Shown piece by piece: positions 4,801 through 64,000 of a stretch of 64,000 nt of DNA. The notes below the pieces were generated by a model. That model did not search any database, was not told the DNA's origin, and worked only from the letters and a program-made list of their open reading frames with translations. The position numbers and the translations under genes were made by a program. Source of the stretch: Ischnura elegans (Eukaryota; Arthropoda; Insecta; Odonata; Coenagrionidae); NCBI RefSeq assembly GCF_921293095.1, contig NC_060259.1:28155812-28219811 (forward strand), read 5' to 3'. Every line of letters begins with the position of its first letter. The stretch's first letter is position 1.

Positions 4801-7800
4801 TCTTTAATCAAATGCCAAGTATTTCTGAGATGAATTTATTTCGGAGGCTAACTACAGCCAAATTATAGGTGTAATAGTCCCAATACTCGTCAACATATCC
4901 ATGACTTATGCGTAGCATGCTTTAAAGGGTATAACTAGCTTGTTTTAAAAATAAGCTAAGAGCATAATAGAAAAAGTTCTTATGGTTCACGATTACCTCA
5001 ATACATTTAAATGGTGAGAATTTTTAGCTATCATTGTATATTATTTCGTACCTCACAACCGTAGGTGGTGATACGGTAAAAATATTAGACTCAATATAAC
5101 CACATGGTTTCTTAAATAGTATCAATCCAGCTACTAATCGAAGGAAAAATAAATTTATGCTTACCTTATCGAATTGGAAGTCACACTTTTTTTCATAAAC
5201 AATTATGTACACATTGTCAATCGATCTCATGTGAAAGACCTATTTCGAAATGTGAAAGAAATGTGAATTTCATGTGAAAGAAAATTTCGATATTCATCGT
5301 GAATCGCAATACATGAATTACCTACAAATTATTTCCTATGCATTTATCACATTGAAAACCACTTTTCAAAAACAAAAATAACACAATTCTGAGATGATGA
5401 ATTATTTATGTACTCACTTCGCGCAGTACATTTCGATGGATGTTAAAATATACACGACCTCTCTCAACCGAAGTCTCGGTGGCTTCACCAAATATCTCAT
5501 GACATTCACCCTCTGCAACTGATTCCAAACCAGAAGCTACGGTGGCCTCAATAGTGAGCAAATCTGGCTCGACTGAGGACTTCTTTAGAAGAGACTCAAG
5601 GGTTTTGCCTTCCATTTTTAATGCAGATACAGGAAGTACGTGTTTCTGTAATATAACAAACATTCTCTAATGAGAGACACCTTGGAGAAGTTAAAGAGTG
5701 CAAATGGAACGAAAGGAAAGACAAACTCTTACGCATAATAGAATTGCATGTATCCCCTGAATCTTACCGCCACGATGTTTTGAAAACAGCCCAACCACAA
5801 ACCGTCTGAACGGTCTGAATAGATCCCATGAGCAAAGAGCAATGGTACCACCTGAATCACATCTATCAACCAAATAGTACCAACATAATAATATTTTTAC
5901 GAGCTGGTCGATCTAGTACGTAATGTTAGGATAGATGGTACTAGTAATCACCGGGAAATTCAAATTGACCTTATTCCTAATTCCATTCAAGTTTGCAATT
6001 GATTTTTTTCTACGGAGATTTCGGCATACAGCAATTCAAATTGCCAACAATATAAGAAACTAGTGGTAATTTGAATTCTTATAGACCAAAATATTCATAA
6101 TAAAAATCATCTTATCATTAATAAGTAAATAAGTCTTACTTTTTATAAAGAATATTCAACGTTTTTTGTCATCAAACAAACAGCTTTAACCTAATTTCTC
6201 CCCTCAGTGTGATAAGGCTTATAAAATTTGAATTTTTTGCCATTCACAGATGGTTGCGGAAAGATACGTGTTAGATCTTGTATTATATCGTACGAGCTGC
6301 AAACAAGTCTGGGTTCAAGCGTTTAAATGATGGGACATCCATTTTAAATATCAGCACATCATAACGATTTCTAAGGTATCTCAGCTTTCAATCCTTACTC
6401 ACTTGTACTCGCAACCGTAAGACCTTGCGTTCCTTGAGGAAATGTGGTAAAATATTTTCATATGCAAAGGAATCGGCAGTAAGTTCGCGAAATAGTAATT
6501 TTGTTACGACCATTTTTAACAGTATTCTGCTTGTTTCCTAGTAATGTAGTGATTGAAGTGTAAAGCTTGATGGATGTTATATCTTTATTTTTTTCATATA
6601 ATTTACTAGAATAATGATCATTTACATGTTAGTCTGTCACTGCCTGAACGTACAGTGCCAGATTAACACAAATTGAAAATTGCAGGCAATACTGTCAACA
6701 GAAAGAGGGAAGGCTACATGCTCAAATATTTTGTCTAGATGGATTAATTTTCAACATTAAACTTAAAAGAAAATGCTTAAACTTCATGCTAATAAACAAA
6801 TCGATTAAGAGAATAGGCAAAACTCGGAGGAGGGGGATTAGAGGACGGGGGAGTGGTCCTTCTTTGGGAGTGGACAGTCGGAAAATTGGTGTTTATCTTC
6901 ATGTTGTCCTGTTAGATCTCCGTATTTTTAGAGCATTTTCTTATATACGGGAAAAAAGGCGCTATTGTATTAGATTATTCTGAATATGTATCTGTCCTCA
7001 ATTTACAGAACACCATGCAATGTGACATTATTTCGATAGTGGTCCAAGGTTCGGTAAGGTATGCCATTTCCAAAACCATATGATGATTGATACCCGGGTC
7101 TCGAATCCACGACCTTAGCCTTAGGCTTGGTTTCCGTATTTTTTGAGGATTTTTAATTCGTATGTAAATAATTTTTGGATAAGCCTTGTCGGGTGAGATG
7201 TAATATCTGTTAGGTGAGCCATGTCTCAGGTGGTCCCGATGTTACTTGTCGCTCACACTCGGAAGGGTCGCTATTCCGCAACTCTTTCCTCTAGCCGTAT
7301 ACCCTCGCTGGCCTCTCTTCTCGGATATAAGGATGAGGTAGGATGCTTATATTCCCATCAAACTAAATTTCATACTATCATTATACTAAATTTAAAAACA
7401 TCTTCGCAGCATGGATTAATTCGGCTAATGCTGTGAAAAAAATAAACCAAAATATTGCCAAACAAAATGTGGCAGTTGATTATTCATGGGCGTAACTATG
7501 GAGGGATGAGGGTTACGCCGCTGACACAAAGTATATAGTTTGTTCAATCCTTCACTTTGCTGAGTTCCTGTGTCACTGCACTGAGTCAATGAAGAGGCAG
7601 TCTACGTTTATTCGATTCCTTAAGCTGCTTTTTCAAGGTCCATGAAAGTAAGCTGCCGTAATTCCCCTATTTTAAGAACAACATCTAATGTGCTCAGCAA
7701 TAAGAGAGACAAAGTATCTTTCTTAGTCAAAAATGAATAATTCTTGACTTATGCAAATTCGATTATTTGAATCATTTACAATTGACAATGATGGCTCATT

Positions 7801-10800: not shown

Positions 10801-11843
10801 TGGTGTTAGCCGTGTGCGAGAGTGTTACTTTATTACCTTTACCGTTATTCAAATCAAGGCCGCAGTCGTGACTTAGTGGGGATAGAACCACCCGCGTAAT
10901 TTCTGGGAAAATTGGAAATATTTCAATTGCTTTTAGGTGGCTTACTAATGAAATTTTTCGTTTGAACAGATTAATGAACAATGTTTAAAAATAATTTATG
11001 AAAACCGCAAAGTCACTCGTCAACGTATATCAGGGTTCATACATAATATCACTGACAAGTATTGCACACCACCAAGTCGGTATGGAAGTTAATGAACCCA
11101 CTAAACAACGATGTACAACGACTGCTCCTGCCATACACAGAAAATGTCCGGGTAGGAGGGGTTCATTATGAGGGATTTCGCATATGATCATTCTCTCTAG
11201 AACTCTGCATTTCTGGAGAAATGCAGAGATCAGACCATCGCCGCGGAAACCTACGCTCTAACATTCTCTCTAGAATTTCGATAGGAAGAGGAATTGAGAC
11301 CGCCCTGACTTTCCCACCGCTACCACGCATGTGACCTCAAGCTATTACCATTATTTCATTGAAAAAACATTACGAAAATACATGCTCGCAAATACGGATG
11401 AGTTGATCTTTACCATTAAGTTCTTCATATACTAAGTGGAACTACCGAAACCGTAAATATATAGAAAGTGATAAGTAACACAAAAACAGAAATCCGATTG
11501 AATCTTAACGTACAACTCAACCACCCACTTAAAAGTGCAGCAAATTATCTAATTTAAATAATGATAATTTTGATGCTTTCAACACTGTCATGGAGATCAG
11601 TTAGCGATCGATTTTTGCGTCCTTTAATTGCACTGCCATTTTGATGAAAAAATGACATCTCAAATACCGAGATTTAAAAAATGCCCATTACTTTTTTTCG
11701 ATTCATCCCACCCTACTGATACAACCAGTAAAAAAATTACGAACATTATCATAAAATAGCCCGCATGACTTTTTCAAAGTAAGTTTATCCTATCAATTGT
11801 TCTACCGCTAGTAAAGCATTTTCGTACTCACGTCAATGTCCAT
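1582..11843 (-). CDS. THUMPD3: THUMPD3-like tRNA guanine-N2 methyltransferase, 5' part (four coding exons; 3' end beyond the left edge)
   Basis: Family knowledge: THUMPD3, with TRMT112, methylates guanosine (m2G) at positions 6/7 of certain tRNAs. Seen: four minus-strand blocks join in one frame through consensus splice sites. Exon 1 ends 11832 with MDID before GTGAGT. Exon 2 is 5645-5418 and holds TIEATVASGLESVAEGE and VERGRVYFNI. Exon 3 is 5239-5165 with MRSIDNVYIIVYE. Exon 4 is 1882-1582 with IDWKKPISIWQEVYK and a lysine/acid-rich tail. These align in order with the N-terminal part and THUMP region of vertebrate THUMPD3 as I recall it. The Rossmann methyltransferase domain is not visible here and should lie left of position 1; I found no further exon in 1-1560. 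ATG 11843 is preferred because it joins exon 2 in frame; an upstream in-frame ATG (11996) would add an unlikely leader. Introns of 6.2 and 3.3 kb are repeat-filled. Confidence 0.85.
2792..3460. mobile_element. 669 bp TIR element, copy 1 (in THUMPD3 intron)
   Basis: Ends AATAGGGTGGTTTCC and GGAAACTACCCTATT are inverted repeats. The interior matches 51868-52538 (inverted) and 63586 onward along its whole length, including TTTAAATAAGGATTATTA-type and GTGACGTCA-type stretches. It encodes nothing. TA at each tip would fit a Tc1/mariner-type target, but no longer target duplication is seen, so the superfamily is open. Confidence 0.75.
3525..4110 (-). mobile_element. Decayed LINE 3' fragment (RT C-terminal region)
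   Basis: Minus-strand translation in shifting frames gives LQFQYLGCYITYDEE, NTFQRICCTL, NGSECWIPKKNELRQIES, SEMKFLRSLKGCTRLDK and finally RLDWTAPYDVTS. This order (yLG, TFQRI, GSE.W, EMKFLR.V.G.T..D) is the region C-terminal to the reverse transcriptase in RTE-like insect LINEs. It is broken by stops and frameshifts and lacks the catalytic domain. It sits in the THUMPD3 intron, on the same strand as the gene. Confidence 0.75.
4340..4460 (+). repeat. SINE-like unit (weak)
   Basis: The stretch around 4385-4425 reads like a tRNA B-box region (GTTTCAGTTCCACCTGGG, compare GGTTCGAATCCCACC). No clear A box, tail or target duplication was found, so this is only a suggestion. Confidence 0.3.
5165..5239 (-). 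CDS. THUMPD3: THUMPD3-like exon 3
   Basis: Acceptor AAATAG before GTCTTTCAC; donor GATAAG then GTAAGC; 75 nt, phase 0 at both ends. It encodes VFHMRSIDNVYIIVYEKK, the counterpart of the LRSVDNL stretch in vertebrate THUMPD3. Confidence 0.85.
5418..5645 (-). CDS. THUMPD3: THUMPD3-like exon 2
   Basis: Acceptor TTATATTACAG before AAACACG; donor GAA then GTGAGT; phase 0 at both ends. It encodes the start of the conserved N-terminal region (TIEATVASGLES, RGRVYFNIHRNVLRE). An internal ATG at 5615 would be an alternative start if exon 1 is not used. Confidence 0.85.
5880..7830. other. Non-coding intron sequence without recognised features
   Basis: Lies in the first intron of the THUMPD3-like gene. 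Short open frames (for example 6786-6983 and 7221-7436) show no conserved motif. A tRNA-like GGTCTCGAATCCACGACC at about 7096-7115 has no A box. Confidence 0.5.
7831..8540 (+). mobile_element. Decayed RTE-type LINE fragment split by a hAT MITE
   Basis: Left of the MITE, 7831-7934 reads KVVNKIKEK, stop, VNIYRE and then LRFAHDIVVISD, the RT active-site block with HD in place of the usual DD. It matches the INEIKQKA ... RFTDDIAVIAE stretch of the RTE copy at 16.2-18 kb. Right of the MITE, 8268-8535 reads FPYGSEAWTLKVAQ, VESFEMWSYRRMMKIKW and LAERRVDWTAAS, the C-terminal end, followed by an ATGATGATGG tail. The part between RT and C-terminal domain is deleted. Confidence 0.8.
7935..8267. mobile_element. 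hAT-type MITE, family A, copy 1
   Basis: Starts CAGTGGCGCAGCGAGG and ends CTAGCTGCGCCCCTG, imperfect terminal inverted repeats followed inward by G- and C-tracts. The interior is the same as in eight other copies. An ATAAT run near 8052 is specific to this copy. Its flanks are LINE sequence and do not show the 8 bp duplication found at other copies. Confidence 0.85.
8540..9605. other. Non-coding intron sequence
   Basis: AT-rich DNA with no supported gene, repeat family or structured element recognised. Confidence 0.4.
9614..9912. mobile_element. hAT-type MITE, family A, copy 2
   Basis: Family A ends and interior; 299 bp. Flanked by AGGAGGTG (9606-9613) and AAGAGGTG (9913-9920), an 8 bp target duplication with one mismatch, the length typical of hAT elements. 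Confidence 0.85.
10490..10535 (+). repeat. Degenerate hammerhead-like motif (Penelope-type remnant)
   Basis: GTGAGACGCGTCTATCGAAAC at about 10493-10515 resembles the CTGANGA / stem / GAAAC arrangement of the hairpin inserts at 51.4 and 59.2 kb, with a core mismatch at the first base. No target duplication or arms were found. Confidence 0.3.
11189..11275. mobile_element. 59 bp hairpin insert with perfect 14 bp target duplication
   Basis: CATTCTCTCTAGAA occurs at 11189-11202 and again at 11262-11275. The 59 bp between begins with a 12 bp perfect hairpin (CTCTGCATTTCT / AGAAATGCAGAG) and ends CGCCGCGGAAACCTACGC. The same end is found in the insert at 59169-59364, and a variant at 41652-41806. 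The duplication and shared end show retroelement-like insertion. The likely source is a Penelope-like element reduced to its terminus. Confidence 0.7.
11832..11843 (-). CDS. THUMPD3: THUMPD3-like exon 1, coding part
   Basis: Four codons (MDID) followed by the donor GTGAGT. The exon continues upstream as 5' UTR to about 12.0 kb. Joining to exon 2 at 5645 keeps the frame open (MDID then KHVLPVSALK). The assignment of this exon rests on frame, splice consensus and position beside a divergent transcript, not on sequence conservation, which is too short to judge. Confidence 0.6.
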
Positions 11844-16198: not shown

Positions 16199-18075
16199 AT
16201 GAATCATCATCATTAGTCAACAATCCTAAGATCGGTTTGACGCAGCTCTCCATTTCTCTCTCCTATCCGCTAATCTCTTCATAGCTACATATTTATTCTC
16301 TTTTACATCCTTTATAACCTGTCCGATATAACTCATTCGGGGCCGTCCCTTGCCCTTTTTCCCTTCCACTTGTCCTTCAACGATTGTCTTCATCAGACCA
16401 TCGTGCCTCAAAATGTGGCCAACTAAGTTGTCCCTTCTTCTGCTTAATGTTTTTAGGAGGCTTCTCTTTTCTCCTACTCTCCTTAGCACTTCATGGTTAC
16501 TCACACGGTCGATCCATTTTATCTTCATTATTCTTCGGTAGCACCACATTTCGAATGCTTCCACTCTTGACTTCTCTGCTGCTGTCAACGTCCAAGCCTC
16601 GCTTCCATAGAGAAACATACTCATATGTAGCATCTGATGAATTGTTTCCTTACTTCTATGCTGGTATTTTCAGCTGTAAGAAGATTCTTCTTTTTGTAGA
16701 AAGCCCTCTTCGCCTGCGCTATTCTACTGTGTATTTCTTTCTTGCTCCGTCCATCGCTGGTAATTCGGCTTCCCAGGTAAGAGAACTCGTTCACCTCTTC
16801 AAGCTTATGCTTTCCTAGGTTGATGTTTGTTTTGGCCTCCTCTCTTTTACTGCAAACTAATATCTTCGTCTTCTTTTTGTTGATTTTCAGCTGATATCTG
16901 GCCATTGTCCTTTCCATGTTTGTCAACGTCTTCTTCAAATCCTTCTCTGTCTCGGCTATGACTGCTATGTCGTCAGTAAATCGCAGCATACTAATTTTTT
17001 CTCCGAGGATATTGACACCCGAAGCTTTCTGCTTGATTTCGTTGATGGCTTTCTCTATGTAAACATTAAAAATTAAGGGGGAAAGCGCACATCCTTGTCT
17101 CACCCCTTTTCTTATTCTCGCTTCTGCACCGTTTGGTCCACATTTGATCACAGCTACTTGGTTTTTATACAAACTATGAATAATTCTACGATCATTGTAA
17201 AGTACGCCGATTTCTTTCAAAATTCTAAGCATTGAATTCCATTCCACGTTATCAAAGGCCTGCTCTAAATCGACAAATGCTATGAAGGTTGGTTTGTTTT
17301 TCTCCATTCTCTTCTCAATGATCATCCTAAGAGCCAAAATTGCTTCCCTTGTGCCCCTGCTTTTCCTAAATCCGAATTGGTCCTCATCCAGGAATTCTTC
17401 TGCTCTTCGTTTAATTCTCCTGTACATGATTCTTGTCAGAATATTCGACGCATGTGTCGTCAGGCTTATGGTCCTAAATTCTTCGCACTTCTCAGCTCTC
17501 TTCTTTTTTGGGTATGGGAATGATGATGTTCTTCTCGAAGTCACTAGGTAAATCTCCTGTTGAGTACATATCGCAGATAGTTTTATACAGTTGAGTTAAG
17601 ACCTTTTCTCCTGCATTTTTTATTAACTCTGTTGGAATATCATATATTCCTGGGGCCTTATTCTTTCGCAGGTCTCTTACTGCAGCGTCAAATTCCGATC
17701 TTAAGATGCTTGCTCCAATGTCATCCTTTTCAACTTCACTTTCCTCTTCGAGAACTTTTGAGCTAAGTTTGCTCCCGTTGTATAATTTCTCCAGGTATTC
17801 CTTCCATCTCTCGGCTTTGTCTTCGTTTTCAATTACTTAGAATGTTTCCATTCCTGTCCCTTATGCTATTACATTTTGTGTTTCGTTCCTTGAAATGGTT
17901 CCTCACTATTCTATAGGCCGCTTCCACTTTCCCTTTTACGAGGTTATTTTGTACGTCCTCACATATGTTCCTCATCCACGCTTCTCTGGCTTTCCTCGCT
18001 TGGCGGCAAATCTCGTTCCTTATTCTCTTTGCCTGTCCTTCCTCAGTATTCGTATTCTTGTCGTTTCAAAATCTT
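16199..18075 (-). mobile_element. 5'-truncated RTE-clade LINE (RT and C-terminal domain)
   Basis: Minus-strand reading gives the linker (RQARKAREAWMRN), the RT fingers (DLRKNKAPGIYDIPTELIK, then FEKNIIIPIPKK), a palm with FVDLEQAF, RKGVRQGCALSPLIFNVYIE and LRFTDDIAVIAE (FTDD in place of FADD), then FSYLGSRITSDG, FLYGSEAWTLTAAEKSRVE, FEMWCYRRIMKIKW, LVGHILRHDGL and the end REKWRAASNRS. The tail is an ATGATGATGATT microsatellite. The order is that of RTE/BovB elements. A one-base frameshift in an A-run near 17512 and another near 16630 separate the pieces. The APE endonuclease domain is absent. Frames are otherwise open, so this copy is fairly young. Confidence 0.9.
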
Positions 18076-18340: not shown

Positions 18341-18615
18341 CTTCTACAGCTGTATACTATGCAGCAAGCCGCGTCAATAAGCGTGTGGCAGGGGGTGTTA
18401 GGACACCGGCCGTTAACAAATAAAAAGGACAGGCTGTAACGTAGTTCTACCCAGAATTTATTAAATTCTTTTATCGTGTGGGAGGAAAAAAATTCAATTA
18501 TTCATCCATTCGAAAAAATATCTCTTATTTTCGTTTCCGAGGGACATGGAAATAAAGTGTTGTTCTAATATGATTTTCTCCGAGTCTTCCTCTTCTTATC
18601 GTGCCTGTTTTCCAA
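18341..18615 (-). mobile_element. 3' end of CR1/Jockey-type LINE (family L1X here), copy 1
   Basis: Contains the shared 3' end CACCCCCTGCCACACGC in minus orientation, followed upstream by sequence aligning with 25445-25640 and 61157-61380. Only the non-coding end and a decayed C-terminus remain. Confidence 0.7.
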
Positions 18616-25442: not shown

Positions 25443-26095
25443 TTACATTTACATATTATCCCGCAAGCCGCCTACAAAGGCGTGCGGCAGGGGGTGTTAG
25501 AACACCAGCCGTTTACATATGAAAGAAAATGCTCTAACGAAATAACGACTAGCATTTTTTGAAGTCCTTTATGGTTCGGGGGAAAGACGAATGCACACAT
25601 CTATCCGTTCGGCAAAATATCTCTGTTAATATATTGCTTCTGTCGGACCTGGAAATATAGAGGGGGTCTAATATTATGTTCTCAATTTCACTCTTAAAGA
25701 TATCTATTCTCAATTGTTCAAACAATCTTAGCCTAGCGCGCAGCCACCGAGTCTCCGGTGGCTAATTCGCTGGGTTACGCAGTCGGTACGCCCGTAGCAG
25801 TTCTATTACGAATCGCGCAGCTTTTATTTGTACTTTGTTCAGCTCACGGATTATGTCTTTCTGCACCGCATCCCTTATGCTTGCTGCATATTCAAGGTGT
25901 GGACAGGAAGAGCGTAAAATAGCACCTCTCTTTCAGTTTTTATCCGAAAATCTTCCCACCATACGTTCCACGAATCATAACTTCTTCAGGGCTCTGCCAG
26001 AAATATTCCTTATGTGTTCCCCACGATTGATGGTAAGTTATCATAACTCCCAGGTACTTCACTTCGTCCCTTGCTTTAATGTCAATACCACAGTT
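25443..26095 (-). mobile_element. CR1/Jockey-type LINE fragment, copy 2
   Basis: Minus-strand reading recovers KARDEVKYLGV, SGRALKKL.FVERMVGRFSD, PHLEYAAS, LNKVQIKAARFV and the 3' end with CACCCCCTGCCGCACGCC. Collinear with 61156-62290. 5' truncated, several stops. Confidence 0.8.
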
Positions 26096-30051: not shown

Positions 30052-31016
30052 GAGCCAAGATAGAGGATTCGAACTTAATCTGATCAAATGCACGACGGTG
30101 ATTTTTTTGCTCGGGTCGCCCTACTATATCCATGTATTTTCTGTGGCTGTTTTTAACATTATAGCGACAGATGAAGTAAGGTATCTGGGAGTTACCATAA
30201 CCTCGACCCTATCCTGGGAAACGCATATAATGGCCTGTTTACCCGATACATTACCACGTAAGAGTTAATGTCTGTTTCCATGAATGATTTTTGTGGATCG
30301 GTACGGAACACGTATGAATGCATGAACCAAATTAGAACAGGTTCTATTTTCTGTGCATGCATTCGCACAAGTTGGGTGGTTACACGGTGCATTTTGGCGT
30401 TTATCCTCGCGTTCATACATTTAGACCCGTACGTGTTAATGTACCTTGTAAACAGGCCTTAAGAAATATTTTTGTCAGAGCCCTGAAGAAGCTCGGATTA
30501 GTGGGTGGATTTTCAGATGAGAAAGTAAACGAAAGGTGCTTTTTCACACTCGCCAGGCCACACCTTGAATATGCAGCGAGAGTATGGGATCCGGTACAGA
30601 AAGACTTAATTCGTTAAATAAATAAAATACAAAGGAAAGCTGCACGATTCGTAATAAACCCGCTTCGGGCGTACTAAAAGTGTTACAAAGATGTTAAACG
30701 AATTAGGTAGGGAACCGCTGTAGATTCGGAGGCTACGTATTAGACTTGGAATGCTTGAGCAATTGACAATGTATATCTTTCGAAGCGAAAACGGAGAACA
30801 TAATATCAGAGCCCCACCACATTCCCACGTCTGACAGAAAAGATAAATTGAGAGAGGTATTTTGCCGAAAGGATAAGTATGGGAATTAGTTTTTCCCCGT
30901 CGACAATAAAGGACTTTACCAAATGCTGGGCGTAATTTCGTTAGAGCATATCCTTTTTATTTTTCAATTGCAGGTGACCTGACACCCCTGCCACACGCCT
31001 ATTGAGTCGGCTTGCT
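30052..31016 (+). mobile_element. CR1/Jockey-type LINE fragment, copy 3b (C-terminus and 3' end)
   Basis: Restarts at the segment already present at 29540-29700 (GGATTCGAACTTAATCTGA versus GGACTCGAGCTTAATTTGA), then continues to VRALKKLGLVGGFSDEKV, RPHLEYAARVWDPVQKDLIR, INKIQRKAARFV and the 3' end with CACCCCTGCCACACGCC. Interrupted by a Harbinger-like MITE. The overlap with copy 3a is about 150 bp. Confidence 0.8.
30231..30459. mobile_element. PIF/Harbinger-like MITE (nested in LINE)
   Basis: Inverted ends TGGCCTGTTTAC and GTAAACAGGCCT with similarity of the arms for about 45 bp. TAA at 30228-30230 and 30460-30462 is a 3 bp target duplication. Comparison with the LINE copy at 61.7 kb shows uninterrupted LINE sequence at the target, confirming the insertion. 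Confidence 0.85.
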
Positions 31017-41639: not shown

Positions 41640-41818
41640 ATTTTTGGTAATTTCTCCATGTTTCTGGGTTTCACCGCGTGGATTTTCTTTGTGACAACAG
41701 TTTCTCCGGTATTCCAACCGGCGTCTTCAGGTCGATGAATCCACGCGGTCAAAACCAGAAACATGGAGACATCATCTAGACAAACCGCGGAAAACTACGA
41801 ATCAAAATTTTTGGTAAT
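41640..41818. mobile_element. 155 bp hairpin insert with perfect 12 bp target duplication
   Basis: ATTTTTGGTAAT flanks it at 41640-41651 and 41807-41818. Arms CTCCATGTTTCTGGGTTT... and the reverse complement (AAACCAGAAACATGGAG) enclose, on the minus strand, CTGAAGA, a stem CCGGT/ACCGG and GAAAC. It ends AAACCGCGGAAAACTACGA, a variant of the end of the inserts at 11.2 and 59.2 kb. Confidence 0.75.
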
Positions 41819-53965: not shown

Positions 53966-54310
53966 CTGAAATGGTAAACACAAGACCGGTTTGTGATTTT
54001 CGGACTTAAGTCGCAAGTAGACCATTCTCTTACGCCACTTGCCACACTCTTTGTAAACAATTAACTTACTTGTAAAAACCTTTCCCCATATGTAGGATAA
54101 AAATCACTACAGTGCCTCCTAAACCATTTCTGCACGTCTACAGCAGTCCATAAATACACTGGCCTCGGTCGCGCAGTTTTATTCTGCGTAAAAATGAATT
54201 ACCAATGTTAGTAAATAAGGAAAACACCGACTACTCTGAAGCATCAAAATGAAACTTACTTTTGGTCTTGAAGTCGAATTACTGGAATCATCTAGTATTG
54301 TGTCCTTCAT
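53789..54310 (-). CDS. ave: Aveugle/Hyphen-type SAM domain protein, complete (three coding exons, 113 aa)
   Basis: Family knowledge: Aveugle (Hyphen) is a small cytosolic SAM-domain adaptor that binds CNK and helps form the CNK-KSR complex, promoting Raf activation in Ras/MAPK signalling. Seen: exons 54310-54260 (MKDTILDDSSNSTSRPK), 54183-54070 (ARPRPVYLWTAVDVQKWFRR, then HCSDFYPTYGERFLQ) and 53965-53789 (HDITGRTLVRVNESTLLRLG, DHRQEIWREIMKLKLKTDI, then LEIRDLERRNN to TGA). All junctions are GT-AG and phase 0, giving a SAM domain over residues about 26-97 (VYLWT at its start). Length is close to that of Drosophila Ave. ATG 54310 has an in-frame TAG five codons upstream. Introns are only 76 and 104 bp. 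Confidence 0.93.
54070..54183 (-). CDS. ave: ave coding exon 2
   Basis: 38 codons between acceptor TTTTTACGCAG and donor TTACAA then GTAAGT. Holds VYLWTAVDVQKWFRRHC, the first helices of the SAM domain. Confidence 0.92.
54260..54310 (-). CDS. ave: ave coding exon 1
   Basis: 17 codons, ending AGACCAAAA before GTAAGTTTC. Ser/Asp-rich leader before the SAM domain. Confidence 0.85.
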
Positions 54311-55204
54311 TAAAATGCTTTTCTACAGATGAAGTACAGAGAACTAAAATGCCTTCGTTCTGTCACTCGATATATATAAATATTCTGGAGAACTACGACA
54401 TTGACCTTTCGGAATCCATCCCAAACTCAATTTTATGCACATATGAGCTATTTAGTTATTCAATTTTCGGTTGGCAACTTCTTCGATCGGGCAAAAGAGG
54501 GGGTTACTTATCCAAGGGGTATCAAAGCACGTATGCTCCAGAGTGGTCCAGGCTATGTGCTCCTGGGGCGCCATCTAACAAAAAACCTGTAAAGTTTTTC
54601 GCCTTTTGGAGCAGTAATGTCACATCCAAATTCAAACATGGAAAAGCGTGTGGAAGCCGTCATCGGTTCTCAGCAGCTGCCCAAAATATGGCTTTTACAC
54701 GCAATTGAGTCTATTTAAGCTTATATGGCCTTTTTTTCAGTTTTTTGTGAGGCATCCCGTGATGGTTCTACGTGCCCTTGGAATATAAATATTATTGCAT
54801 CGGGAAAGGTACCTACTGCAAGTGAGTGGTAATAGTTCGAGTGGATGATATTTCAGTTTTAATATTTTTTGTGATTCACGTTAAATGAAATTGAACACTA
54901 CTGAAGAGTGAAAAATTGGAAGAAAAACTGATACTCTAGGACATATTCAACTGAAGAGGATTCATCATTTTTCAGATAAGTTTAATCCAATAGCCAGGAA
55001 AAATCAATGCCCAAAGATACTGAGTGCACCCTTCTAAATATCAACGAAGGGGATCTTACAGAATGGTAGAGAGGCAGTGAGAAAAAAATATTCTCTATAC
55101 ATTCTTACTGGATTAATATATATCATAGAACCTTGGTGGAGACATGATTCTTTTGAGTGTGCGTAATCTTCAGACATCTATGTCAGACATCTATGTCTCC
55201 CCAC

Positions 55205-56940
55205 ATAGCACAAAATATCTTATAGATATCTAGAGAAGGTCTACAATGTCTTGGATATCTTAAATATCTACAAGATGTCTAGAAAATGTCTTCAATTTCT
55301 TGGATATTTAAAATATCTATTAGATGCCAAGAATATTTCTATTCTATGAAAGTATGGCTACTGCCTAGCCTTCAAAAATACCGGAGTTTTAGATACTGAA
55401 AGTAATTAAACAAAAAGGTAATTCAAAGAAATGATACATGTATAAAAAAAAAAAACAAAAATATTTGTGGCGAAAGAGCAGACATCTACAATTACGGAAA
55501 AAAATATTATTAGGAATTTAATTAATCAAAATTAATGGGTAACTATGAACTGTATCAGCTTAGTAATCATCAATGAACAAATACGTATCAGTGTAATAAA
55601 TGGTATGTCAAAATATTCTAGTCTCTTCTTTTTAGGTGCTTAATACAAGCTAAATTCTTTTTTTACTATCTCAAAAAACATTGCCATAACGCTTTATGTA
55701 TCACAATGATGTATTCATATTCATTCATAGCCCTGATGAAGGTGTTTAAATATGTTGGCAAAAACTTGCGTTTAAATTCTTCAAGACATATGTTGCAAGA
55801 CACTGAATCAACATTCATTGATAATGTTGCTGACTCCTTTGAGAAATGTAAAGGAAATTGTAAGCTCCTTTGGTGACTTCAAATTTGGAATTGGAGGAAT
55901 AAGTGAAAGCCAGAGAGGTTCCAATATTCAGGAAGATTCCCCAGAAGGCACCTTACCTTGCTCCACAAGTAGGCTTAAGTTGGAAATAAACTCTTGTTAT
56001 ACCAAAAATATTATATTTTAGTCATTTATCCTGAATTTTCCCAATGGATCCAATTTGAATATAAATGTCTAGAAAATATCTTCTCTTAGATATCTTGTAG
56101 ATATCAGGAAAGAGGACATCCAGATATCTAAAAAATATCCAGAAGATGTCTAAAAGATATTACAATATATTTTCTAGATGAAGGGGGTTGGGGTAATATG
56201 GTAATTAACCTCACTTTAGTAAATCACATGAAAGTAAATTCGACCACGTTTATTACGATGGCAAGCGATACAGATGCTTTATCTCTCTCACTCATGGAAA
56301 TCCTTCTCCATTGCCATTTCGTCAGCGTCTCTTTCTTGTGGCACCTTCCTGGCATTAGGTTCCGCGTACCCTGGTGGCGGCGGCAGGGACCCAGGGCAAC
56401 GACCTCAGCCCGGTGACTGGTCTTGGTGACGGTGCTTGAAACTAAGAGCTCCACCACATCACCCCCTGGCAGTGAGTTACCCTAGCGTGGAGAAGAAATA
56501 AAGGAAAAGAGAGAAAAAGGCATAAAATTGACATATGTTTGGAGGAAAAAAAATTGGAAAAGGTTACAGTTGGTAGTCCAGCAGATGCCAAGGGAAACAG
56601 ACGCATCTCTTAGGGTGGCCGCTAGACAGAGCATGTTCTGCCCCTTGAGCTGCAGGTGTAATAGTTGGGCCATCAGCTGGTGGGATGCTAGTAGATGGCA
56701 ACACGTGGGCTGATGACTGCCTCCTGGTGGTCGGGATGAGCTTTTCGCTCCTCTCCTCAGGGATGATTGGCTCCTCAGAGATGATGTAGGCAGGTTTCAG
56801 GTGGTCAATGGCAATGACCTCAGCCAGTTAGCTTGCCTTGGTGACAGTGCTTGAAACTAAGAGCTCCGCCACACTGGACGTTAGCTGAAGATGTTCGAGA
56901 TATTTTTTAGACATCTAGTAGATATTTGTGCTATGCATGT
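55205..56940. mobile_element. Element with inverted CATAGCACAAA ends and AGATATCT-type reiterations
   Basis: CATAGCACAAAATATCT at 55205 and AGATATTTGTGCTATG at 56925-56940 are inverted. Inside each end, degenerate AAGATATCTA / AGATGTCTA motifs recur many times (55205-55330, 56065-56180, 56890-56925). The middle holds Ty3/Gypsy-like remnants (56225-56880). Could be a foldback-type element or two copies facing each other; no target duplication found. Confidence 0.5.
56225..56880 (-). mobile_element. Ty3/Gypsy-like retrotransposon pol C-terminal remnants, duplicated
   Basis: Minus-strand reading VAELLVSSTVTKAS, then AEVIAIDHLKPAYIISEEPI and a Pro/Thr/Ser-rich tail fits the end of Gypsy integrases (V.vdrLKPAy). 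The VELLVSSTVTKTSHRAEVVAL block occurs again at 56457-56390, so the segment is partly duplicated. Stops are present. Confidence 0.5.
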
Positions 56941-56999
56941 CATGACTTTAACTATTATTAACCCATATATTAGATATGTTAACATTATTGTGCAATGAG

Positions 57000-58200
57000 C
57001 TACACTTGCTCAGAGATTTTGGGAAAGATAGCTTCCACTTACTATTGAATTCTCTTGTTGATTGGCTGAGTAAATAATCATCCAATTTTCAACCCTTCAA
57101 TGGCTTCATTTCTTGACTTATTTTCTAGAGAGAATGTTTCATTTCTTGGGTGTTTCCTCTCATTAGTACAGATTTACCTTACACCTTCCCTTTTTGTCTA
57201 ACTTTTTGCTTTTCTTTTCTAATTGACAAAGACACAATGGATGTCTTTAGGATCACGGATGGGAGATCCTTGCTTTGAATACTTCTATGATTGGTACATG
57301 ACAGATTGAATTGCCATTAGTGTAATGAATTTCCCATGCCTTAAATCTCATACTTGAATGTGTGCAATCTGATCGGGTGTTTCTTCATTATTAAATTGTT
57401 TACATTGGACTTGGGGTTATTTTTTCTTTATTTAAATTTCACATTTAAACTTTTGAACGTGAAGAATTTCCTTTAATGACTACAGCCTTTAAATGATTTT
57501 AATTCTGAATTATCATATTATGTAACTGACACGTAAAAATCAAATCCATGGGTATTAGCTATCTATTCATGGGATTATCTACAGTATTTATCTCTACCAA
57601 AAGTTTAGTAATGGTTTTCTTTATGAGAATATATCTTTTATATCGTATTTTTTTACATATGGACTAATTTACAGGTTTTTTGTACTTCTTTACCGCTTTC
57701 ATGCAATAAATTAAAGATGCAAGGAACGTTGTTTTTATTTCTGTTTCAAAATTCCCACCATTAGTTATTATCCTTGAGCACAATTGGCACAATTGGGCGG
57801 GGCTGAATTTCTGAAACGCTAGTAGTACCAGCCCGGCCACCCCTGCCTTTTTGGCGCTAGGCATCGTGGGTACGACCGGTACGATTTTCTAACATTGAGT
57901 TTAAGGTGTCTGGGGTTTGCGGAAACTGGTTAATTATTGTGTTTTTGTTGTGGTTACAGTGATGTTGTTTATTGTTTTAAACGGTTGAAAACTCCGGGCA
58001 TGTGATGGTAACTGAAGGCAATTTGAGGGCACATTTATTTCACTTTACGTTTCCTTTGTTCAATTACATCTGTAGCATTTTGTACTCCTTGAGTGCCGTT
58101 AGTCACCCTTTAAAACTTGCAATAGTCTTTTTTGTCTGCTTTTCGTTTCTTACGTATTATTGTTAGCAAATTGAACACCTCTGTACTCATTATTCGTTTG
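57000..58200. other. Intergenic stretch and probable 5' region of the FAM3-like gene
   Basis: Mostly AT-rich. A GC-richer patch at 57780-57900 (GGCGCTAGGCATCGTGGGTA) may mark its promoter; this is inference. The minus-strand frame 57664-57864 has no recognised motif. Confidence 0.35.
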
Positions 58201-58412
58201 ATATTCTTTATAGTCTTTACTTATGCTCATATTCATTCACTCTGCTTAACTTCGTTGGCTCATGATTGATCATCTGCCTTTCGTTTCGCTGAATTTTTTC
58301 CGGAGACATGCTGTAAAGCTTCATCTCAAAGCTTTGTGGTAAATGCGAATGAATGTCAGGATAAGTGTGGCTCATTCTAATTTCATAACTTCGCGTCCAT
58401 CTGAGAAGTAGA

Positions 58413-58452
58413 ATGGCAGCCCACGAAAACATTAAGAGGAAATGTTTGAAAT
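58413..58452 (+). CDS. FAM3-like coding exon 1
   Basis: Thirteen codons plus one base, basic cytosolic start (KRKCLK), donor AAAT then GTATGT. First ATG after a G-rich leader at 58405-58412. Confidence 0.7.
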
Positions 58453-61400
58453 GTATGTTTCTATAAATTGTGGTACCTATCGCTAGTTCCTTAATATCTC
58501 GAATGATAATGCGGTTTTTTTTTCAGGGCATCAATTCACATGGGCTGCTGTAATATCATTGACAGTCGTTATCGCATTATGCCTGCATTTCATGGGAAAT
58601 GGATTTTTGGGATTGAAGAAAAAGTTATGTGAAGGAAGTTATGAGGCATATGCAAATTTAGATACGAACGGTAGTTCATCCCCGGCTACAGTAGAAGGCA
58701 AGTTCTCTAAGTTGTGACGGAAACTCAGTTTAGTTGCAATTCGACTTATAATTTCCAAAACTAATCCGGCTACTTACGTCCTCGGCAAATCCATGAACGA
58801 AAACTGTTAATATTAAGTGCATGTATTGGTACTTTTTTAATTTTACCTTTTTAATTTAAGACGACCGGGTTCGATATGGTGCAGAGTCATCTGGTGTAGA
58901 TATCGGAAATGCAAACTCTACACCGGGTCAGGGTGGGTGGAAGGATTGTGGCAAAAGGAGGAAGGTTGTGGGAAGGGAATAGACTTTCAGAGTACATTAT
59001 CAGGAGAACCTATCATATCGACTTAGTAAGAAAGGGGACATCCATTAATTAGGTGAGGAGTTCAGGGGGGTCAGGGGTCAAGCCAATTATCACCGAATCT
59101 CACGTGGGGAAGAGGGGTTCCAGCCAGGTATCACCATATTTTTTCCCCAAGAAACACTGTAAAATGTGGTCAGTGACTTTCGGGTTCCTCAGCCGCGTTG
59201 GTTGTTTTTGGATGACAACAGTTTCGGGAGCCATCCTGCTCCCGTCTTCAGGTCGAAGGTCTGTTGTCGAAAACTGTTGTCATCCAAAAACAACCAACGC
59301 GGCTGAGGAACCCAAAAGTCAGCACTGACCATGAGCAACGCCGCGGAAACCTACGCCAGAATTTCACTGTAAAATGTGATTCTATACTATGATCAATGTA
59401 TTAACTAATCTTAAATAAAAATAATTAAACACATTTTTTTCAATAAATACAACACAATGAGCCATATATTAATGCAATACAGGGATAATTAAACAGAAGA
59501 TAAAAGAGAACCTTTTTTGAACGTTATATTTGCAAAGGTAGTTTTTAAAATATTAAGGCACAGTTTCAAGGAACGAAGTCACTAAATAATAGGTAATAGA
59601 ACCATTATAAATTAGTAAATTTTATAAGCTGTGAAATTTTCTCATATCGTTTTATTTTTTCTTATGAAATTGCAGTTTTTATATTAACTTGTGTCTGGTT
59701 TTGAAGAGCAACAATGATGTCAAAATCCATTTCCAGGCATGCAATTTTCTAAATTTTTCCGAGATAGGACCCCTGAATCCCTAGGTGAGGGAGGCTCCAT
59801 CTTGAGCCCTAGCCAAGGGCCCCCAATTACCCCAGACCACCCCTGGTCCCTACCTCTCCTCATGAAGGATCTTAGGTTCAAAGGTACTGAAATAATTTTC
59901 TTAGAGCATTCTTGGCAAACAACAAGGATTGTTGTTTTTAAAAAAGCTCAGTGTTAGTTTAGATTTAAATCATAACCATTTTCCTGAATGCTGACACTTT
60001 AAATCTATTCAGTGACCCATCCTTGCCCCCCCCCCCCCCTCCTACCCTGGTGGTAAGTTTTTTCGTGCGGACACTCAGAGCAAACTGATTAAGGCCATCA
60101 ATCACAAATGCATTAAAATGTTCTTCACATATACACAGGGGCCATGTTAAGAACAATTAACAATGGTTTAACTTCAGCAAATATACCCCTATTTAGTAAG
60201 TTCTCAACATGGCTGCAAGGGCTGTGCTGAGGATAAGTGCACCAAGGTGATTTTCTCTCTAACCCCTTAATGGTAAGGTCTTTGTGTGACAGCAGACGCT
60301 ACATGAAACGGAGTATGCAAAATCTCAGTATCAGAATTCAATCAAACTTAGTGGGGTTGCAGTCAGTGATTTGCTGTTAACATATCATTCCCTAAATGGC
60401 AGTATATAATCAATATTTTAAACACAAAGGGCAGTGAGCAATTGCAGCAGTCATGGTTTGCTTTCTGAAAGCACTTTTCTTACTATCATGAGTAGTTCAC
60501 TGTCTAGCTACAGGTAAATTTTTCTTCTCCTCATTGCCATTTTTATTTCCCAGAAGACAGTGGTTTTCCTTTCTTTTGATATTTTTTCCCTCATAGCTAT
60601 ATTTCTTGTGAGGAATATTTATTTTTTGCAGTTACAGCATTTGACATATTCTCACTCTTCATGTTGAGGCAACCTTTTAATTTTGTTACGATTAATTATG
60701 TCAGGCTTGAATTATAAGAATATTGAGTGAATAATATCATATTTAATCATAAATGGAATCAACTGCAGAGAGATCACATGAATTCATCTTGCAATGATGC
60801 AGGCGTAGCATGTCAAAGGCTACTTCCATGTGAAAAAAATGGGAAATTGTGGAATTCCATCAAGGCATTGTCTGTAAAATAAAGTTATGAAGAAAGAAAA
60901 CATTTTTAAGATTGGTGCATTGCAGGATTCCATGAAAGGAAAAATGGGAAATAAGTGATGAAAATTTTCCTTGAGCAGGACTTGGAAGCAGGGTTTTTGC
61001 TCAAAATTCAGGTGCCTGCCAATGATCTGCTAACGACAGAGGTGGAAAGGCTTTTGTAAAGGAAGTCATTGCAGATGTAATTAGCTGGCCTGCTCTCACT
61101 GCCTCATAATAGATGCATTGACTTTCATTTGCAACCCCTAGAGGGATACTTAAAACATCTACATAATACCCCGCAAGCTGCCTAAAAGGTGTGGGGCAGG
61201 GGGTGTTAGGACACCAGCCGTCTATAAAAATAATGAAGTGCTCCAACGAGGTTGGGACTAGCGTTTATTAAAGTCCTTTATGGTTCGGGGGAAAAACGAA
61301 TTCCTATATCTATCCGTTCGGCAAAACATCTGTCTTAATTTATCACCTCTATTGGACCTGGAAATATACCTAGTGTTATTCTAATATTATGTTCTCTGTG

Positions 61401-62822
61401 TCGCTCTTAAAGATATCCATGCTCAATTGTTCAAGCAATCTAAGCCTAGCGCGCAGCCTCCGAGTCTCCAACGGCTCCCAGCCTAATTCGCTTAACATCT
61501 GGGTAACACTGTCTGTATGCCCATAGCAGTTTTTGACAAAACGCACAGCCTTCCTTTGTATTTTATTCAGTTCGCGGATTAAGTCTTACTTCACCGGATC
61601 CCATAGGCTCGCTGCATATTCAAGGTGCGGTCAGACGAGAGCGAAATAGCACCTTTCTTTTACTTTCTCATCCAAAAATCTTCCCACAATACGCTTGACG
61701 AATCCTAATTTCTTCAGGGCTATGCCACAAATATTCTTTATATGTGTTCCCCACGTGAGGTTCGAGGTTATCGTAACTCCGAGGTACTTCACTTCGTCTG
61801 TTGCCTTTATGTTAATACCATCCACTGCATAAACATGGTTATAGTTGGACGAATTCCGCAAGAAATGTACCGCCATGCATTTGCTCAGATTAAGCTCGAG
61901 TCCCCGCTTTTGGCTCCACAAATGAACTTTGTTTAAGTCAGATGATAGAATTTCATAGAGTGATCACTAATTTCGCGATAGATGACAGGGTCGTCAGCAA
62001 ATAAACGTATTTTACTGCTAATGCGGGAGCAGAGATCATTAATGTATATAATGAACAACAAGGGGCCGATTATGCTTCCTTGTGGAACTCCTGATGTAAC
62101 TTTTATAATGTCAGAGCTAATTCTGTTGAGAACTTCTTTTGGTTTACGATCTCTGAGAAAGTTGTGTATCCAGTTTACAACTGTTTTGTTTAATCCGCAT
62201 GACTGTAATTTGTATTAAAGTTTATTGTGAGGTAGAGTGTCGAAAGCTTTCTTAAAATCTATAAATCAATCATTTATAAAAGAGTGAAAATAGTGTATGT
62301 ATTCAACTAAAAATCTTGACTCATTAAGAGTTATGATATAGGGAAAATAAATGTTATCCATAGCATAAAATTTTAAAATCGGGTATTTCAATATGCAACT
62401 TATATTAAATGCTACATAAAAGAGTAAAATTTTTTTTAACCCACCGATCTCTGCATTATGCAGGGGTATAATGGTATTTTAGACTCTTAGAGTTAGTGCT
62501 TTTTGCTCACTGAAAATGTTTTCAGTATCCACCCTGTGAATGTTGCTGGTTGAAGTTCATGAGTGTGAGAATCTGTGAAAAAGAGTGTGACATAAGCTAA
62601 TACGAATCTCTGCATGAAACAACAGCACATAAAAAGGAAATGTATATCATAGGCACATTTTTTCATTTCAGCTAAACGCCACTTCCAGGAAATAATAGAA
62701 ATTGGAGAAATTTTACCAAATTGTGGATTGCCTCAGACCTGTCCTGATGATTCATTCCCTGTGCATTTGTATACAGGGCAAGATAAGGATGACCAGCCTA
62801 GATTATGTGTTCTTGGCAAATA
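58413..62822 (+). CDS. FAM3-like secreted or type II membrane protein, first three coding exons (3' end beyond the right edge)
   Basis: Family knowledge: FAM3 proteins (FAM3A-D) are small secreted or anchored factors with a globular GG-type fold. Seen: exon 1 58413-58452 (MAAHENIKRKCLK), exon 2 58527-58697 (WHQFTWAAVISLTVVIALCL and on, one membrane segment at residues about 19-36, then FLGLKKKLCEGSYEAYANL), exon 3 62672-62822 (AKRHFQEIIEIGEILPNCGL, then PQTCPDDSFPVHLYTGQD, then PRLCVLGK). The CGLPQ.CP....f....G......P.+C...K series matches the start of the FAM3 domain (vertebrate FAM3A has CGLPQPCP). Phases fit throughout. Intron 2 has a GC donor (AG then GCAAGT). The rest of the domain lies past 64000. 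It is transcribed away from ave. Confidence 0.75.
58527..58697 (+). CDS. FAM3-like coding exon 2 (signal anchor)
   Basis: Acceptor GGTTTTTTTTTCAG, GC donor at 58698-58699. Encodes the hydrophobic segment and a Ser/Thr-rich stalk (NLDTNGSSSPATVE). Confidence 0.75.
59040..59460 (+). repeat. Dispersed repeat pair, member 2 (split by a hairpin insert)
   Basis: GGGGTCAAGCCAATTATCACC, GAATCTCACGTGGGG and GGTATCACCATATTTTTTCC align with 33780-33880. After the insert at 59169-59364 the alignment resumes with TTTCAATAAATACAACACAA. Confidence 0.55.
59155..59378. mobile_element. 196 bp hairpin insert with perfect 14 bp target duplication and hammerhead-like core
   Basis: CACTGTAAAATGTG at 59155-59168 and 59365-59378. 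Arms at about 59183-59225 and 59269-59312 pair (GGGTTCCTCAGCCGCGTTGG, TTGTTTTTGGATGACAACAG). On the minus strand the loop carries CTGAAGA (59251-59245), C, stem GGGAGC/GCTCCC, GAAAC (59225-59221), and flanking GACAACAG/CTGTTGTC can pair. The 3' end CGCCGCGGAAACCTACGCC is shared with the 11.2 kb insert. Confidence 0.8.
59600..61140. other. Non-coding FAM3-like intron sequence
   Basis: AT-rich. G/C-tract DNA at 59755-59870 and a C-run at 60027-60038 may be MITE debris; no paired ends found. Confidence 0.4.
61156..62290 (-). mobile_element. CR1/Jockey-type LINE fragment, copy 4 (in FAM3-like intron)
   Basis: Minus-strand reading: FKKAFDTLPHN, TVVNWIHNFLRDRKPKEV, SGVPQGSIIGPLLFIIYIND, KIRLFADDPVIYREIS (intact FADD), RGLELNLSKCMAVHFLRNSS, KATDEVKYLGVTITSNLTWG, CGIALKKLGFVKRIVGRFLD, NSFFPRTIKDFNKR and the 3' end. 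The best preserved copy of this family here, 5' truncated and with several frameshifts and stops. Confidence 0.9.
62300..62660. other. Non-coding intron sequence
   Basis: No feature recognised before the acceptor of FAM3-like exon 3. Confidence 0.4.
62672..62822 (+). CDS. FAM3-like coding exon 3 (start of FAM3 domain)
   Basis: Acceptor TTTTTTCATTTCAG, donor AAATA then GTAAGC, leaving phase 2. Three cysteines in the family spacing (NCGLPQTC, then LCV). Confidence 0.8.
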
Positions 62823-62829
62823 GTAAGCA

Positions 62830-63220
62830 TTTTTATTGTTTGATATCATTTTTATTCAGTCAGTGCAGTGAAACCTATTTATGCTGTATCAGTTACATAT
62901 TCCCTTGCTTTACGGAGGGCCATAACTGTTGAAATCAAATGAGAATTAATGGTATTTTGATTTGCTATAAGAAATTTGTAGTTTGCAAAAGTTCAAAGCA
63001 TACGTGCACAAAACGCATGTTACTCGTTGTCGATTTTAAACGGCTGAGGGCATAACTGTACAAAATTTCCTAGCAATTTCATTGAGATGAGCTAATTGTA
63101 AGGCATCAACAGAGAGGAGTAGACTCATCTGAATAACTCTAACTTGAATAAGACTTTTTATTATACAATCAGTGTAACTTTCATTCTTTATTTTAATGTA
63201 TTATATTGAGAAACAGTTGA
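62830..63220. other. Non-coding intron sequence
   Basis: No feature recognised between FAM3-like exon 3 and the MITE at 63228. Confidence 0.4.
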
Positions 63221-63227
63221 TAAGTAT

Positions 63228-63546
63228 CAGTGGTGCAGTGAGGAGGGTTTTGGGGGATAAACCCCCCCCCCCCCCCCCCCCCCAGAGCATAGAGAAATTT
63301 TTAAGTTAAATTCATTTTACTTAATTGGATTTTTATTACTAATAGAATAGTGTAAGGATTAATAAAATATCCCTCAGAAAGTCGTAAAACTGACCATTTT
63401 GAGCCATTAATCTTAAAATTCCGCAATTTATTAATCTCGCACCTACCTCTCATCCTGGTGGGTATTCCATACCCCCACACACCCCGGCATTAGTTGCACC
63501 TCAACCCCCCCCCCCCCCCCAGCCTTAATTCCTAGCTGCACCCCTG
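63228..63546. mobile_element. hAT-type MITE, family A, copy 9
   Basis: Target duplication ATAAGTAT / ATTGGTAT, 6 of 8. C-tracts of about 22 and 16 bases flank the core. Confidence 0.85.
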
Positions 63547-63585
63547 ATTGGTATGATAAAATCGCTAATTTTTCTGGGATTGTAT

Positions 63586-64000
63586 AATAGGGTAGTTTCC
63601 CATTATTTTTTTATTGCCTAAATCGAAAGGTTATTACGCTTGGAGTATGCTTTTCACGCTTTTGGATTTATAAAGGACGATATCTATTTTTCGCAATTAA
63701 ATGGAAAGTGAACAATTTCAAGCGTGTGAAAATGCAACGGCTAAGTATGAATGCTGGGAAAAGTCCGTGTGACGTCATTCTGGTTCCCGCTGGCACCATG
63801 CGAGGTGACTTTGGGGTGAGGATATGTGCGCCGCTGCAATGCAGGCTGCTATCACGTAGCAGAGTATCCTGCTAGCAGGTAGTGCTTGGCTTAAATAAGG
63901 ATTATTAATGCCTTATCAAACGAAGGAAACTTTCCGACTAGGCAGTTTTAATAGGTGATTATTAAGAGATGTTTGCAGTTAAAACCCCAAAAGTCTTTCT
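63586..64000. mobile_element. 670 bp TIR element, copy 3 (cut by window edge)
   Basis: Starts AATAGGGTAGTTTCC and follows copy 1 (same orientation) to the window edge, 40 bp after the MITE of family A. Confidence 0.8.

Follow-up and report, generated by a model that had tools for sequence, protein, structure and literature searches.

The 196-bp insert at 59169-59364 of the window (the whole 64-kb stretch of DNA that was analysed) is probably a truncated insertion of a Penelope-like retroelement (PLE), made by priming on both target strands and head-to-head joining of the two cDNAs. Related hairpins in this window and across the host genome have common outer ends, a tail on one side only, a target site duplication (TSD) and varied junctions; the ends of their arms form a peak, and a longer copy contains a reverse transcriptase (RT) ORF.

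Structure of the insert and of its relatives in the window

A sequence-only reading of this DNA had described a hairpin insert with a perfect target duplication, and most of that description holds. The 14-bp duplication CACTGTAAAATGTG is exact at 59155-59168 and 59365-59378, and the insert between the repeats does measure 196 bp. Its long inverted arms (59174-59224 / 59271-59321, 51 nt) are 98% complementary, and the minus strand carries CTGAAGA at 59245-59251, a 6-bp stem II and GAAAC...GTC, the whole motif spanning 59214-59252. The pairing flank GACAACAG/CTGTTGTC claimed by that reading is also present (59214-59221 / 59261-59268), but we do not read it as helix III: the sequence at 59261-59270 is filler at this copy's own junction, and the 16 aligned copies differ from it there. 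An 8-bp helix III made of this stem was rejected for that reason.

Self-comparison of the window yielded two relatives of this insert (copy A), namely copy B at 41652-41806 and copy C at 11203-11261. The features of the three copies are as follows.

Copy A
59155..59168, no strand: left TSD, exact repeat
59169..59260, sense on minus: untailed cDNA half (alignment); it starts at the putative +1 (59260), includes the core and ends at the first putative RT start site
59214..59252, minus: hammerhead-like core CCTGAAGAC, 6-bp stem II, GAAAC-TGTT-GTC (pattern, covariance model)
59261..59270, no strand: junction filler between the cDNA halves, varying in the other aligned copies
59271..59364, sense on plus: tailed cDNA half
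59330..59364, plus: 35-nt tail between the two putative RT start sites (alignment)
59365..59378, no strand: right TSD, exact repeat

Copy B
41640..41651, no strand: left TSD, ATTTTTGGTAAT (12 bp)
41652..41736, minus: untailed half, from the putative +1 at 41736
41693..41731, minus: hammerhead-like core (pattern, covariance model)
41738..41806, plus: tailed half, with tail at 41770-41806 (37 nt)
41807..41818, no strand: right TSD (12 bp)

Copy C
11189..11202, no strand: left TSD, CATTCTCTCTAGAA (14 bp)
11203..11261, plus: 59-bp insert with 12-nt arms (11203-11214 / 11217-11228) and no hammerhead core
11229..11261, plus: tail, 33 nt
11262..11275, no strand: right TSD (14 bp)

A scan of the window that made no use of similarity, based only on a direct repeat with an adjoining inverted arm and an offset tail, recovered B (tail 37) and C (tail 33) plus one more match, at offset 76; 40 Markov sequences of equal length gave 2 matches in total at offsets of 25-45. 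The arms of copy A contain a 3-nt indel, which hid this copy from the scan. In all three copies the minus-strand leader, read outward, forms the left end and has no tail; the right end repeats this leader on the plus strand, again reading outward, and adds a tail of 33-37 nt. The motif CCGCGGAAA(C/A)CTACG is common to the three tails. Arms agree more closely within a copy (93% with an indel in A, 94% in B, 12/12 in C) than between A and B (about 68-73%), as would be expected if one RNA, at one time, had given rise to both.

The PLE body is absent from the 64-kb window by blastn and tblastn with the longer copy L093 described below. The window also holds an RT ORF at 16621-17595 (minus strand, RVT_1 E 2e-42) that by its look is of non-LTR type, an ORF at 16226-16669 (minus) that overlaps it and has no Pfam match, and a dispersed repeat of ~250-330 bp (70-82% identity) at 61155-61500, 25445-25756, 30689-31015 and 18346-18586. 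An Rfam search placed microRNA matches on the palindromic arms, below their gathering scores, and a search of a phage collection gave no match.

A longer copy with a reverse transcriptase

Several features support the Penelope-like origin proposed in the earlier reading: the tail is one-sided, there is a target duplication and a hammerhead-like core, and one longer copy has both an RT ORF and a GIY-YIG-like motif. This copy, L093, is a 2.3-kb insertion with hairpin-type ends and a 12-bp TSD (by eye). Its ORF at L093:4799-5872 matches RVT_1 (E 1.8e-13), and a phmmer search against solved structures returned weak matches to several kinds of RT, telomerase RT among them. The second ORF reads GVYKV-CSCGKAYIGET...RIKEH, which we take to be a GIY-YIG-like endonuclease motif; the same motif is visible in 3 sequences. 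Pfam called no GIY-YIG match on the L093 ORFs, so the presumed endonuclease rests on this motif. The stop codon of the second ORF falls within the first letters of the hammerhead-like core. Within L093:4280-6600 the inverted half includes the end of the ORF (4376-4936, minus), and a second cDNA can thus be ~600 nt long. Inverted or pLTR-type ends of the PLE kind, with a TSD and a tail (35, 37 and 33 nt in copies A, B and C), are present in this family.

Hairpin copies across the genome

In the host assembly (1.72 Gb, 110 contigs) the exact 33-nt tail of subfamily B occurs in 504 copies, with 0 for the reversed control, and an exact 33-nt stretch across the tail start of subfamily A occurs in 56. 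Similarity searches gave 98 matches for query A, from 40 scored of 994 candidates, and 84 for query B, from 40 scored of 2034. In 16 hairpin copies of A the TSDs are 11-18 bp long with at most 1 mismatch (a count made without a control), the outer ends are nearly identical and the junctions differ. Three of the 16 (L011, L015 and L018) represent a single insertion within a larger repeat, and L014 has the junction of L011/L015 at a different site. Among 39 further B copies, which likewise have common outer ends and varied junctions, 31 reach a TSD score of at least 9, and 5 have the tail on the opposite arm (by eye; 4 of the 5 were also flagged in a further comparison). We examined 22 A loci whose middle is longer: 13 have two arms, and each of these has exactly one tailed end, while in the stretch fetched for the remaining 9 a single arm is seen, tailed in 7 and untailed in 2. 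Because nearly all junctions differ, we regard these copies as separate insertion events.

A second sample was chosen by tail, with the far end ignored: the first 40 listed of the 504 exact-tail B sites, all on one contig (C1). A joint test, requiring a TSD no shorter than 10 bp (score at least 9) adjoining an inverted tailless leader end, was passed by 33/40 sites and by 5/399 swapped-flank controls. The 33 passing inserts are 100-477 bp long (median 179 bp), with TSDs of 10-17 bp that are 70% A+T. The 7 failures comprise a one-arm insertion with a 14-bp TSD (L130), three sites at which no TSD was found within 520 bp (L112, L121, L123), a hairpin at which no TSD was found (L111) and two sites with a score of 8, just under the cut (L100, L125). 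Mapping of an arm required an 18-nt anchor; this gave 70 arms (37 tailed, 33 untailed) at 30 loci with both arms and 10 with one. The sample overlaps the similarity-selected set at L118 (L067), L128 (L051) and L131 (L053).

Arm ends and the putative transcription start

The ends of the 70 mapped arms are concentrated: 17 fall on two adjacent nucleotides (binomial p ~1e-11 against a uniform distribution over -5 to +54), just 5' of the hammerhead-like core, and 9 extend more than 5 nt past this point. Untailed arms reach the peak point (-5 to +4) in 18/33 cases and tailed arms in 7/37 (Fisher p 0.0027). Upstream of the peak the longer B copies carry TATATAAG, 21 nt and then CATCGACC, and in L109, L110 and L112 the first T of TATATAAG precedes the peak by 30 nt. 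A Pol II transcript is expected to start at the A of a CA step, 30 nt after the first T of the TATA box. Taken together, the arm-end peak and the position of the TATA-like box place the probable mRNA start at the hammerhead-like core, ~30 nt after that box.

In subfamily A, TATAAG stands 29 nt before ACCTTCGACC, which holds the corresponding A, and the sequence upstream of the start region is the end of an ORF. There is no sharp peak in this subfamily, with 3/69 arms ending at 0/+1 (untailed 3/32, tailed 0/37) in a sample picked by similarity that includes longer copies. The start-site peak therefore rests on subfamily B. Counted on leaders, two putative RT start sites lie ~85-95 and 120-130 nt from the putative transcription start, so close to the mRNA 5' end that little template would be left for each cDNA. 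In 3 of 4 predicted leader folds (L110, L112 and L095, not L026) a CGCGG arm pairs with a CCGCG tail in a stem that encloses the first RT start site, the second lying just 3' of the stem.

A model of insertion and its alternatives

In the model that we favour, transcription would start ~30 nt downstream of the TATA box and directly 5' of the hammerhead-like core, and reverse transcription would have two alternative internal start sites, ~85-130 nt from the mRNA 5' end, so that every cDNA would be short. Most cDNAs would end at or before the 5' end of the RNA. Both nicked target strands would prime, usually one from each RT site, which would leave one outer end without the 33-37 nt tail and the other with it. 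The 3' ends of the cDNAs would then be fused head to head, with microhomology or filler at the join, and the 10-17 bp duplication would arise when the staggered cuts are repaired. We infer three of these elements, namely the transcription start, the order of the two syntheses and the joining step.

A single cDNA might instead have folded back at its 3' end and copied itself into a hairpin. Some junctions are palindromic, that of L057 (CAGGTCGACCTG) among them, and PMC3846280 proposes self-priming for rotifer Penelope from palindromes at inverted junctions. However, an arm copied back in this manner should repeat the tail and run on into the target, whereas the second arm starts at a tailless site adjoining the TSD (33/40), and the two arms of each of the 30 two-arm loci stop at different positions on the template. 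We consider such snap-back priming unlikely.

Still less probable, in our view, is a non-autonomous hairpin family in which the whole hairpin is the unit of transcription, reverse transcription and insertion, and the very small non-autonomous form envisaged by the sequence-only reading is not supported by the comparison of copies. The hundreds of tails (504 and 56 exact) and the many short inserts of like size with the same ends would suit such a family, as would L103 and L114, which have a common junction and different TSDs, and the recurrence of the L011/L015 junction in L014. On the other hand, junctions vary between copies, the 30 two-arm loci comprise 28 distinct end pairs, L011, L015 and L018 together count as one event within a larger repeat, and 61 of the 70 arms, not extending more than 5 nt upstream of the putative start, lack the TATA box. 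Apart from L103/L114 and L014 with L011/L015, the sampled copies gave no sign of descent from one another with a common internal structure, and as a main route this mechanism is disfavoured by the sample. The hairpins look like short insertions of an autonomous element and not like a replicating mini-element.

Returning to dual-strand priming, we are evenly balanced on the fuller proposal that the hairpins record PLE integration in which both strands are primed on a capped mRNA, each target strand using one of two neighbouring internal RT sites, and the untailed cDNA more often extends all the way to the mRNA 5' end (18/33) than the tailed one (7/37). If this is true, hundreds of copies chart where a PLE starts reverse transcription and transcription in vivo and by what rules its cDNAs are joined, and the element's main product is the body-less leader dimer.

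The hammerhead-like core

The earlier reading had proposed a hammerhead-like core in the insert. The core and a covarying stem II are there; no Rfam hammerhead model matches, and no helix I was found, pairs next to the core being contiguous for at most 2 positions. CUGANGA...GAAA and the NUH site are present in both A and B, and the window contains 2 matches to the core pattern, where 100 shuffles gave 0.01 on average. A home-built covariance model, trained on 35 motifs from other families of the host genome, found only these two cores well in the window (A 44.3 bits, E 6.5e-11; B 58.4 bits, E 6.6e-15; next-best match E 0.54). The Rfam hammerhead models gave no match, neither at the gathering threshold over the whole window (the sole threshold used for copy B) nor at E <=10 in 54000-64000 and 59140-59400. 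In the 4 leaders examined, from subfamilies A and B, no run of more than 2 contiguous pairs adjoins the core: counted outward, L110 pairs at 0 of the first 4 positions, L112 at the first only, and L095 and L026 in broken runs of at most 2.

Genome-wide, the pattern CCTGANGA-N15-30-GAAAC-N3-5-GTC has 10,520 matches, against 47 for the reversed control. The 35 motifs were hand-picked from the first 100 of these as listed, leaving out by eye A- or B-like matches, those not 39 nt long and other classes. In their stem II, 90.0% of cells are paired against 83.8% when shuffled, two-sided cells number 23 against 7.4, and the covariation score is 0.237 against 0.123, none of 500 shuffles being as high on any of the three; kinship among the motifs can itself exceed shuffles. 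Two of the five measures are not clearly beyond shuffles (two-sided pairs 36/500, pair types 105/500). Shifting the register by 1-3 columns lowers pairing to at most 53.9%. The letters of the core and of helix III are set by the search pattern. Judged from these alignments, the predicted helix II is maintained by compensatory change. The hammerhead reading is partly supported: the element carries a hammerhead-like motif, a putative self-cleaving ribozyme.

With classes assigned by eye, same-class neighbours less than 700 bp apart among the same first 100 matches comprise 10 head-to-head, 1 tandem and 0 tail-to-tail pairs. A second hammerhead-like class, CTGAAGATGATGATAATTCATTGAAACCCGGGTC and its kin, has a palindromic CCCGGG helix III; it accounts for 29 of the 100 matches and also occurs in 6 -/+ pairs spaced 94-280 bp apart.

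Loci chosen by similarity to copy B had first suggested that cDNA ends gather at the hammerhead cut site, but this was rejected on the 40-site sample: of its 70 arm ends, 1 lies no more than 2 nt from where cleavage is expected. The lack of clustering there agrees with the anole PLE, for which PMC11167929 reports that cleavage is not required for insertion in vitro. The same count weighs against a retrozyme-like element moved by way of hammerhead-cut circular RNA. What might bring such an element to mind is that the insert is short, non-coding and flanked by a TSD and has a hammerhead-like core, animal retrozymes being type I hammerhead repeats (PMC7229834). However, the sampled copies are arranged head to head rather than head to tail, helix I was not found next to the core in the 4 leaders, and an RT-bearing copy has the same ends; we would be very surprised if a retrozyme were involved. 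Inverted repeats with a target duplication also recall a MITE or foldback DNA transposon, the least credible origin of all given the variable TSD length (10-17 bp), the tail at one end only, the varied junctions and the ends in common with the RT-bearing copy.

Comparison with known Penelope-like elements

Cervera and De la Pena (2014) and Lunse et al. (2017) are said to have described small PLE hammerheads with a very short helix III. The motifs of A and B resemble these variants in being minimal and in their very short helix III, but unlike them have no helix I that we found by the core. Their helix III loop is not palindromic, unlike that of the second class in this genome (CCCGGG).

PLE insertion is described as little understood in PMC11167929, which deals with Poseidon PAc of Anolis carolinensis. 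In vitro the PAc protein cuts and extends both target strands, and reverse transcription starts at two adjacent internal sites, the stretch between them constituting the tail. Our copies are similar in having two adjacent internal RT starts, as we infer them, with the tail between, and a hammerhead-like motif at the ORF start, as in PAc. PAc is described with a stem I, whereas helix I was not found in our 4 leaders. The PAc evidence is biochemical; ours comes from genomic copies, whose ends form pairs with a single tail and whose cDNA ends peak toward the template 5' end.

For Penelope of the bdelloid rotifer Adineta vaga (Pen2a_Av and others), PMC3846280 describes head-to-head pairs of direct and inverted pLTRs, one of the inverted ones with a 31-bp tail, TSDs of 8, 9 and 10 bp and junction palindromes, as well as solo pLTRs and captured sequences. 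Head-to-head ends, a single tail, a TSD and junction palindromes recur here. The rotifer elements have a body between the pLTRs, in contrast to the present copies, most of which are two leader cDNAs with a median length of 179 bp.

Inverted, one-tailed PLE ends are already known. What is new here is that the commonest product sampled is the body-less leader dimer and that dimer ends would mark the putative transcription start. Such dimers are not reported in the available text of PMC11167929, PMC7229834, PMC6155905, PMC3846280, PMC8969392 and PMC12910113 (the last, in that text, does not mention hammerheads), nor were they found in the titles and abstract openings listed by the literature searches. 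If our reading is true, hairpins otherwise dismissed as anonymous repeats reveal RT start sites, the mRNA start and the joining of the second end, in agreement with the PLE enzyme studied in vitro, and would help to explain why inverted, one-tailed ends recur in PLEs. The present copies fit the union of the PAc biochemistry and the head-to-head, one-tailed pLTRs of rotifers.
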